Positions 39,954-47,210 of a stretch of DNA of 57,050 nt are shown piece by piece. A model generated the notes under the pieces. It made no database searches. It saw only the letters and a list, made by a program, of their open reading frames with translations, and was not told the origin of the DNA. The stretch comes from Butyrivibrio sp. (lineage in GTDB: Bacteria; Bacillota; Clostridia; Lachnospirales; Lachnospiraceae), in NCBI RefSeq assembly GCF_017433805.1, contig NZ_JAFRGN010000050.1, forward strand, positions 1 through 57,050, written 5' to 3'. Position numbers and translations under genes: made by a program. Within the stretch, counting starts at the first letter, position 1; every line of letters starts with the position of its first letter.

Positions 39954-40182
39954 TTACGAGAGTTGTGCTTTTTTCTAGCGCTGGTTCACGTAGTGACAGG
40001 CTTGATATTGGTAGTGGCTACGTGAGAGGATGCTGTTAAAACATTGCAGTTCACGTAGAAATGGCCAGAAATGGAGAGAAACTACGTGAATTGAGAATCG
40101 TAAAAGGGTGGCTTCACGTAGAATACAATAAAATCACCTTATTACGTGAAGGTTACTTAAATCAAAAGGTTGCGTCACGTAG
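39954..40182. repeat. Array of alternating inverted 9-mers TTCACGTAG/CTACGTGAA, pitch about 32 bases
   Basis: Seven units: TTCACGTAG at 39985, CTACGTGAG at 40018, TTCACGTAG at 40050, CTACGTGAA at 40082, TTCACGTAG at 40113, TTACGTGAA at 40142, GTCACGTAG at 40174. A weaker inverted unit TTACGAGAG lies at 39954, also in phase. Orientation alternates strictly. Start-to-start steps are 31, 33, 32, 32, 31, 29 and 32, close to three turns of B-DNA. Spacers of about 20-24 bases are all different. The array fills most of a 545-base gene-free gap after guaA. Adjacent units could form 8-9-bp stems in RNA or bind a protein on one face of the helix. Confidence 0.8.
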
Positions 40183-40306
40183 TACTGAGAGAAATTAAGC
40201 GAAGTAAAATTATAAAGACAAACTGTAGGAACAATTACAGGAGATAGAGTACAGTTAATCTTTCTGACATCTCAGCTTCGATTTTGTATATTTCAGAGGA
40301 TACGCA

Positions 40307-45831: not shown

Positions 45832-46062
45832 ATGGATATTTCAGAAAGAATAAAGGAATTACGAAAAAAGACCGGATTATCGCAAAGTAAATTTTCTGCC
45901 AAATTTGGGATTCCTGTAAGAACTCTTCAGCAGTGGGAACAGGGAATAAGCTCTCCTCCGGATTATTTGGTCAGAATGATGGCGTATATTATGCTGCTTG
46001 AGGAAAATGGACAAATAAAAAATGAAGGACTGATGGAGGAAAAATATGGGGATGGCGAATGA
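45832..46062 (+). CDS. XRE-family helix-turn-helix regulator
   Basis: Small regulator of 76 aa. The HTH occupies residues 5-45: IKELRKKTGLSQSKFSAKFG, then IPVRTLQQWEQGISSPPDYL. The rest is a short acidic tail. It is the first gene after a promoter carrying two palindromes, so it is a good candidate for autorepression. CAGGAG precedes the ATG. Its last 17 bases overlap the start of the BRO-type gene, in a different frame, so the pair is coupled. Similar HTHs occur on prophages and toxin-antitoxin modules. Confidence 0.88.
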   Translation: MDISERIKELRKKTGLSQSKFSAKFGIPVRTLQQWEQGISSPPDYLVRMMAYIMLLEENGQIKNEGLMEEKYGDGE

Positions 46063-46933
46063 TAAAGTTCAATTATTTGAAGATCAGCCAATCAGAACAG
46101 CGTGGGTCGAGGATGAGGAAGAATGGTATTTTTCAATTGTGGATGTGGTTGGCGCGCTTACGGAGCAAATTGATTATGAAAAAGCCAGAAAGTATTGGAA
46201 CAAGCTTAAACAGAGGCTCAAAGAAGAAGGTAGTCAATTGGTGACAAATTGTCACCAGTTGAAAATGACCGCACAGGACGGAAAGAAAAGACTGACAGAT
46301 GTGGCGAATACCGAACAGTTACTTCGTTTGATTCAGTCAATTCCCTCAAAAAAGGCAGAACCATTTAAAATGTGGCTGGCACAGGTTGGCAGGGAGCGAA
46401 TTGAGGAGGTAATCGATCCTGAACTTACAATAGAGCGTGCATTGGAGACTTATGCTAAGAAGGGATATTCCAAAGAGTGGATTAATCAGCGGCTTCAGGC
46501 AATTCAGGTAAGAAAAGAACTTACAAATGAATGGGAAAATCGCGGAGTTAAGAAAGGTGCAGAATTTGCAATTCTTACAGACGAGATTACAAAGGCATGG
46601 TCCGGAATGACAACGCGTCAGTACAAAAACCTCAAGGGACTGAAGAAAGAAAATCTAAGAGATAATATGTCAACACTTGAGTTGGTGCTTAATATGCTGG
46701 CGGAGGCTACTACAACAGAGATTTCCAAGGAGAGGAAGCCGGAAACATTTGAAGAAAACTTGAATGTAGCAAATGAAGGTGGAGCAGCAGCCGGAGAAGC
46801 AAGAATTGCGGTAGAAAAGAGAACAGGTAAACCAGTAATAACAAGTAAAAATGCTGCACAGTTGCAGGATTTGGTTACTGGTCTTATAGGAGCAGAAGTT
46901 ATTAAAAGCGAGGAAAATGATAACAAAAATTAA
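46046..46933 (+). CDS. BRO-N domain (DinD/antirepressor-like) protein
   Basis: Protein of 295 aa. The N-terminal 110 residues match the BRO-N/phage antirepressor domain (RTAWVEDEEEWYFSIVDVV, TEQIDYEKARKYWNKLKQRL, KRLTDVANTEQLLRLIQSIP, then KAEPFKMWLAQVG). The remainder is helical (ERALETYAKKGYSKEWINQR, LTDEITKAWSGMTTRQYKNL) and resembles the DinD/BRO-type family, ending in a Gly/Ala-rich segment. Such proteins act as antirepressors or in the DNA damage response. It overlaps the XRE gene; GGAGG precedes the ATG at 46046. No other phage genes are near, so this is a lone, possibly domesticated, pair. Confidence 0.85.
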   Translation: MGMANDKVQLFEDQPIRTAWVEDEEEWYFSIVDVVGALTEQIDYEKARKYWNKLKQRLKEEGSQLVTNCHQLKMTAQDGKKRLTDVANTEQLLRLIQSIPSKKAEPFKMWLAQVGRERIEEVIDPELTIERALETYAKKGYSKEWINQRLQAIQVRKELTNEWENRGVKKGAEFAILTDEITKAWSGMTTRQYKNLKGLKKENLRDNMSTLELVLNMLAEATTTEISKERKPETFEENLNVANEGGAAAGEARIAVEKRTGKPVITSKNAAQLQDLVTGLIGAEVIKSEENDNKN

Positions 46934-47122: not shown

Positions 47123-47141
47123 AGAAGCAAGATGTTGACAT

Positions 47142-47178
47142 TTGAGACTTCTCAACATGCCATCAGTTCTAATATAAT
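47142..47178 (+). promoter_or_regulatory. Possible promoter with upstream dyad for the GNAT gene at 47211
   Basis: A perfect TATAAT at 47173-47178 lies 32 bases before the ATG. The expected -35 position has no good match. A dyad TTGAGA-CT-TCTCAA (47142-47155) sits there instead and could be an operator or activator site. Confidence 0.4.
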
Positions 47179-47210
47179 AAAGTCTATGAACGAAAGGGGC
47201 TTAATAAGCT

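Follow-up and report, generated by a model that had tools for sequence, protein, structure and literature searches.

Between positions 39954 and 40182 of a 57,050-nucleotide stretch of DNA from a Butyrivibrio genome (hereafter the window) lie eight 9-base units in strictly alternating orientation, which form four inverted pairs, or dyads. We interpret this array, with a probability of roughly 0.8, as four phased, operator-like dyads that together form a platform for a single member of a family of sequence-specific DNA-binding proteins that are predicted to cut DNA through a C-terminal domain of the PD-(D/E)XK nuclease superfamily. Arrays of the same design are helically phased, carry motifs that are private to their genes, go with genes of this family, whose nuclease residues are conserved, and also occur far from any such gene. 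In the following, C labels denote contigs of the window's own genome (G000, the window being C48), and L labels denote scanned loci.

The unit starts in the window are 31, 33, 32, 32, 31, 29, and 32 bases apart (Table 1). An earlier note, made from the letters of the window alone, had described seven clear copies and a weak one at 39954, alternating strictly at steps of 31–33 bases with a single step of 29, and the listing of the units bears out this description. With one mismatch allowed, the 9-mer has 16 matches in the whole window against 8.1 expected, and none of 100 shuffles reaches 16; seven of the matches fall inside 39985–40182. At the spacing of the array, TTCACGTAG...CTACGTGAA is found at a single place in the window's own genome, which is the window array. 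The search of relatives revealed an orthologous array in nine other genomes of the genus, directly 5' of an open gene for a protein of ~265 amino acids. These loci (L093–L101; L093 lies wholly within L002, and the two were counted once, as one genome) have eight units each, at steps of 31, 33, 31, 32, 31–32, 32–33, and 31, with a first step of 32 in L100. Because unit 1 reads TTACGTGAG in eight of these arrays and TTACGTGGG in one, the alignment identifies the weak copy at 39954 as a true unit of the array. By the same comparison, the 29-base step is a shortening particular to the window, as each of the nine orthologues has 32 or 33 bases at this step. For the window motif the gap from CTACGTGA to TCACGTAG is the more constant one (31–32), and we assign the dyad to this gap, though less confidently than for the arrays of mixed period described below.

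In all nine orthologous loci the nuclease-family gene is open, without an internal stop, and starts right after the array. Leader hairpins precede it, as does a promoter-like sequence where the stretch extends far enough (by eye); the window lacks both this sequence and the greater part of the leader. Judged from these alignments, the cognate gene is gone from the window's genome and the array is an orphan, with putative remains of the gene at two places (Table 1). The DNA of guaA, the gene upstream, is only 82–86% identical between the window and four of the orthologous loci, and the fragment of the 3' coding end nevertheless has 98% identity; the loss of the gene would therefore have involved rearrangement, import, or gene conversion. 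This fragment, whose high identity is suggestive of gene conversion or of an import in the recent past, adjoins an acetyltransferase-like gene, and a nearby open frame (46046–46933) resembles a BRO-N/antirepressor-type phage protein. On its other side the array is followed by a metallopeptidase lipoprotein gene, and the guaA product has 95% protein identity to that of Butyrivibrio sp. INlla18.

The sites have outlived the gene in recognizable form. Among the nine orthologues (36 pairs) identity is 0.948 in the units versus 0.851 in the spacers, and between the window and the nine orthologues (9 pairs) it is 0.883 versus 0.573. As the units have thus remained about 88% identical to the orthologues and the spacers about 57%, the sites were probably under selection during much of the divergence. 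Decay may nevertheless have begun, to judge from the loss of bases between dyads 3 and 4 and from the degenerate left half-site of dyad 1.

The association between arrays and family genes extends well beyond this locus. On either side of the gene (up to 1.3 kb), an exact 6-mer repeated in an alternating chain of at least 5 was found for 106 of 170 distinct genes, and a chain of at least 4 for 133. Among 339 shuffled sides, none reaches a chain of 5 and four reach 4; among 408 control tiles (1.5 kb each, from the window and the guaA loci L012–L081), four reach 5, one of which is the window array itself, and nine reach at least 4. A gene was counted if either side passed, and shuffles and tiles were counted singly. 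The loci scanned for arrays were a non-random set consisting of the top-scoring matches (at most 30 from each search) and a further 100 hand-picked in score order, with 3' stretches of only ~400 bases for the latter; from the 200 loci in the test, 27 were dropped for want of a usable frame and 3 as repeats. Arrays of the same design but with other words also follow guaA in L006 (GGATGCA), L007 (TACGGAA, four units found), L008 (CCCGTAA), and L011 (TGCACGC), and each is then followed by a family gene. The same periods recur in arrays of two further families of the class, f5 and f39; for f15, no chain of 5 was found in the three loci scored. The longest arrays have 24 units.

Family matches are present in 44 of the 48 genomes of the genus, with up to 10 per genome. 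The protein of ~265 amino acids is predicted to consist of an N-terminal half that forms an antiparallel coiled coil with a three-stranded beta tip, and a PD-(D/E)XK nuclease domain. Seven family members share invariant S-E, P-D-F, and E-H columns, which correspond to the catalytic residue pattern E...PD...E-x; among the 93 array-bearing proteins PDF is present in 92 and E-H in all 93. No Pfam match near the cut-off was obtained for the family enzyme. The nuclease domain aligns with the final ~130 positions of the ~1,200-position profiles of the PADLOC candidate PDC-S68, with E-values down to 1.3e-28; the family shares this domain with the PDC-S68 proteins but lacks their large N-terminal part. 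For the large proteins L274, L276, L278, and L279 only the downstream sides were covered, and no chain above 3 was found there. Several family genes have in-frame stops, with two TAA codons each in G016:C1:75630, G035:C34:262269, and G033:C20:59375; gene decay therefore appears to be frequent in the family. Several others have, by eye, leader hairpins of the form GTGGCAG..CGCCAC after a promoter-like sequence on their 5' side. These hairpins have no Rfam match and could be a separate regulatory RNA element.

From 157 scored loci, 93 passed for the statistics on period, motif, and residues. The median same-strand period of the 66 non-redundant motifs is 51–54, 62–64, or 73–75 bases, with none in between, and the Rayleigh vector is 0.87–0.88 at 10.5–10.7 bp versus 0.60–0.62 at 9 and 13 bp. 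The individual same-strand steps of the 93 arrays behave in the same manner: 759 of 770 fall in the bands 50–54, 61–65, or 71–76, and 11 fall outside. These steps, near 53, 63.5, or 74 bp, correspond to 5, 6, or 7 helical turns. In the 64 loci that were left out, 90 of 107 steps lie in the same three bands. The nominal p-value for phasing (1e-22) is too small because the motifs share ancestry, and the evidence from within arrays is stronger than this statistic between motifs. The earlier note's suggestion of a protein-binding array on one face of the helix has thus gained phasing over 66 motifs and a family of predicted nucleases that owns such arrays; that the family protein itself binds, and binds as a dimer, is what we infer.

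Arrays of mixed period reveal which units belong together. In 19 of 23 such arrays one gap stays within 2 bp and the other jumps, mostly by ~10 or 21 bp: in L102 a gap of 28 recurs seven times and the other jumps from 24–25 to 46, in L120 the jumping gap takes values of 18, 28–29, and 39, and in L169 it changes from 34 to 45. The steady gap was defined post hoc as the less variable of the two, and three pairs among the 23 arrays are identical in word and steps (L103/L106, L111/L156, and L161/L164). Given a steady gap against jumps of about one or two turns, the most fitting description of the array element is a dyad whose geometry is fixed, successive dyads being placed whole turns apart.

The half-site appears to follow the N-terminal half of the protein. 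In all pairs of the 93 arrays we called motifs alike when their similarity exceeded 0.6. All 64 pairs whose N-terminal identity is at least 0.7 have like motifs, compared with 26% of the 179 pairs at 0.4–0.5 and 2% of the 1128 pairs below 0.25; when pairs are sorted by C-terminal identity, like motifs occur in 46% of 89 pairs at 0.7–0.8 and in 81% of 89 pairs at 0.8 or more. L006 and L007 have, by eye, near-identical C-terminal halves, and differ in their N-terminal halves and their motifs. The most informative segment of the protein spans the beta hairpin (r 0.27 versus 0.11–0.24 elsewhere). These comparisons lead us to favor the N-terminal half as the part that sets the motif, although they do not prove it.

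Several observations do not fit this picture and weigh against it. Among the mixed arrays the less variable gap is itself less steady in four of 23 (L006, L111, L156, and L159), and jumps of 13–16 bp occur in L006, L154, and L240. Where C-terminal identity exceeds 0.75 and N-terminal identity is below 0.45, 20 of 31 pairs still have like motifs. All 20 compare the L002/L093–L101 clade with L114 and L115, at N-terminal identities of 0.42–0.44, and the words of both groups share TACG; in 10 of the remaining 11 pairs the same clade is compared with L181 (N-terminal identity 0.26–0.34) and the motifs are unlike, as they are in the eleventh pair, L006 and L123. In addition, open family genes without a visible array exist, for example L085; their arrays are possibly elsewhere, and such genes count against the notion of an antidote considered below.

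The favored reading may be put as follows. Through its beta tip, the N-terminal half would recognize a private half-site of 7–10 bases, and a dimer would cover one dyad, whose inverted half-sites are here ~31 bp apart. With dyads whole helical turns apart, the bound dimers would line up along one face of the DNA.

The window array is not the only one without a gene. A census with strict thresholds of 1,566,830 of the 3,447,359 bases of the window's genome (45%, the window included) revealed seven arrays, two of which are near family genes (C67 and C57:178.9k, the latter gene broken) and five of which are orphans (Table 1). For five of the seven, the nearest family gene is at least 27 kb away or the contig has no such gene. 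The census is conservative, since the weaker gene-linked arrays at C17 and C29:94.9k and a doubtful one at C36 fell below its thresholds. Across the whole genome, exact dyads of three motifs occur at 1, 3, and 5 places. A tblastn search for a family gene or its remnant found none in the 5–7.5 kb around five orphan places outside the window, and none in 30 flgN loci. The 18-unit orphan at C57:137242–137800 (L309) is located inside an exopolysaccharide-type gene cluster, and many of its dyads have near-identical spacers, the mark of tandem duplication of ~64-bp dyads.

Table 1. Coordinates of the array, of neighboring features in the window, and of related elements elsewhere.
Feature	Position	Strand	Sequence or word	Remark
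Unit 1	39954	-	TTACGAGAG	
Unit 2	39985	+	TTCACGTAG	
Unit 3	40018	-	CTACGTGAG	
Unit 4	40050	+	TTCACGTAG	
Unit 5	40082	-	CTACGTGAA	
Unit 6	40113	+	TTCACGTAG	
Unit 7	40142	-	TTACGTGAA	
Unit 8	40174	+	GTCACGTAG	
Dyad 1	39954..39993		TTACGAGAG (39954-39962, -) + TTCACGTAG (39985-39993, +)	start-to-start 31; left half-site decayed
Dyad 2	40018..40058		CTACGTGAG (-) + TTCACGTAG (+)	start-to-start 32
Dyad 3	40082..40121		CTACGTGAA (-) + TTCACGTAG (+)	start-to-start 31
Dyad 4	40142..40182		TTACGTGAA (-) + GTCACGTAG (+)	start-to-start 32; 3-4 bp nearer dyad 3 than in orthologues
Putative remnant of nuclease-family gene start	40199..40249	+		~50 bp; start codon gone, stops in aligned frame; alignments with L002 and L093-L101, by eye
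54-bp fragment	47136..47189	+		98% identical to 3' coding end of orthologous nuclease gene; 7 kb from array
guaA	38271..39821	+		upstream of array locus in window and in L002, L006, L007, L008, L011
Terminator-like inverted repeat after guaA	39861..39897	+		separates guaA from array
Orphan array	C57:137k		word of C57:178.9k	18 units
Orphan array	C29:8.3k		word of C57:178.9k	11 units
Array	C54:24.3k		word of C57:178.9k	four units
Orphan array	C57:205.7k		word of C67	
Orphan array	C2:5.6k		CAACAG	word found at genes of other species (L205, L209, L212)
Fifth orphan array	window			the array of units 1-8
Leader hairpin	L007 6623-6710		GTGGCAG..CGCCAC type	
Leader hairpin	L008 6896-6995		GTGGCAG..CGCCAC type	
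Leader hairpin	L085 1248-1360		GTGGCAG..CGCCAC type	

Why a genome should keep such sites invites several answers, which we rank as a reservoir or antidote, then a selfish pair of repeat and enzyme, then regulation; tethering of the chromosome was considered as well. In the first, many chromosomal sites would keep a potentially harmful nuclease bound and inactive, and arrays could therefore stay useful after loss of the gene. We tentatively judge this the likeliest purpose because it explains why there are many sites, why some are far from the gene, and why they outlive it. A stronger version, a DNA-based toxin-antidote system in which the nucleases are held harmless on private phased arrays, both next to the gene and at other places, and freed when the arrays are lost or destroyed, with orphans protecting cells that no longer have the gene, appears rather doubtful. 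The parS sites of ParB and the sites of SeqA are multiple chromosomal sites of one DNA-binding protein, with a dependence on the face of the helix; here, in contrast, the sites vary from one paralogue to another and a nuclease domain is part of the protein.

The arrays might instead be selfish repeats, dispersed as REP/BIME elements are with their RAYT enzymes, or what is left of a transposon that, like Tn7, has arrays of binding sites as its ends; the nuclease would then spread or maintain the arrays, and the orphans would be non-autonomous copies. We consider this unlikely, though it survives better than the other alternatives. Alternating arrays with a cognate enzyme predicted to cut DNA would be expected of such elements, one motif does recur at several places (C57:178.9k, C57:137k, C29:8.3k, and C54:24.3k), presence among relatives is patchy, and the gene at L255 has an array on each side. 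However, in seven comparisons the spacers of same-motif arrays in the genome are on average no more similar than shuffles (means within 0.06 either way), there are just seven arrays in 45% of the genome, and helical phasing points to a bound protein. The orphan in front of flgN speaks in the same direction. Of 29 further loci of the genus in which it was sought, one has it plainly (L385, whose FlgN is 95% identical), and there the flanking DNA is 90–93% identical on the flgN side and 78% identical over 79 bp on the other. The arrays in the two species (L383 480–930 and L385 220–680) have kept the word and the same 29/35–36 geometry, whereas their spacers are unrelated (0.66 identity versus 0.63 in shuffles). 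The array is absent from L384, with FlgN also at 95% and flanking DNA at 81–86%; L389 and L390 have three half-sites each left at this place, and the remaining flgN loci among the 29 have no array. Either the sites were maintained with very fast turnover of the spacers, or two arrays arrived independently; we favor the first.

Among described systems, the arrays look most like those of RAYT enzymes with BIMEs. REP/BIME arrays consist of alternating regular units (PMC2817692), the enzyme is linked to its cognate repeats and co-evolves with them, and a genome usually holds more than 100 REPs. The alternating, regularly spaced units, the linkage and co-evolution of enzyme and repeats, and the cognate repeats away from the enzyme gene are shared with this system, but the arrays fail its enzyme and copy-number characteristics: the enzyme has PD-(D/E)XK residues and is not an IS200/IS605 (Y1/HUH) transposase, for which five members gave no Pfam or NCBIfam match at E 1; the units are half-sites of 7–10 bases rather than palindromes, in dyads phased by helical turns; and there are few arrays per genome, with nearly each paralogue having its own motif. 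Tn7-like ends are intergenic arrays of inverted binding sites tied to the transposase gene and its phylogeny (PMC8649781). The arrays studied here are, in comparison, long, strictly alternating, and often one-sided or without a gene; the family gene showed no sign of a transposase, and tnsB near arrays was not searched for.

Less probable again is pure autoregulation, in which repression of the protein's own promoter would be the sole role of binding to the array. The position of most arrays would suit this role, with a chain of at least 5 on the 5' side of 101 of 170 genes and on the 3' side of 10 of 169 (the 3' side being read less far), and several arrays, by eye, follow a promoter-like sequence and precede the start codon. 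An operator of this kind would not explain arrays as long as the longest ones, the arrays plainly visible 3' of genes in L147, L197, L211, and L250 or on both sides in L255, or the orphans, one of which is in a convergent intergenic region.

The earlier note had also raised the possibility of a transcript folding into successive hairpins, and an RNA-level system like type III toxin-antitoxin, in which hairpins of a transcribed array inhibit the nuclease, could account for the order of promoter-like sequence, leader hairpin, array, and gene seen by eye in several loci. If units paired in RNA, a change in one should be matched in its neighbor; no such excess was found, as adjacent units share deviations in 24 of 546 and 44 of 535 comparisons (4.4% and 8.2%) versus 170 of 2603 (6.5%) for distant ones. 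Together with the 10.5-bp quantization, the lack of an Rfam match, and arrays 3' of genes or in convergent intergenic DNA, outside the likely transcript of the gene, this makes the hairpin explanation very improbable. The repeats of type III antitoxins are direct; those described here alternate, and arrays are also found far from any gene, for which reasons we rejected membership in that class. The pattern of ToxIN, a nuclease with a repeated inhibitory RNA encoded beside it (PMC8860590), is the one that the reservoir or antidote idea copies, with the difference that double-stranded DNA sites are indicated here, alternating and also 3' of and far from genes. A CRISPR-like memory with the 20–24-base spacers as guides is extremely improbable: the repeats are short and the spacers of near-constant length, but the repeats alternate, whereas CRISPR repeats are direct, and the spacers diverge freely between the window and its orthologues or, in the flgN arrays, are unrelated.

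A topical search of the open-access literature, limited in reach, found no earlier description of such pairs of phased array and nuclease. Predicted DNA-cutting proteins with private phased arrays, at up to ten matches per genome, thus appear to be an undescribed large class in a common rumen genus and its relatives. Should the half-site be set by the N-terminal half, the family would be a natural set of many protein–DNA specificities with readable targets, from which one could learn how a compact DNA-binding module recognizes its sites. The question of why a bacterium keeps many sites for a nuclease, even after the gene for that nuclease has been lost, also becomes testable.
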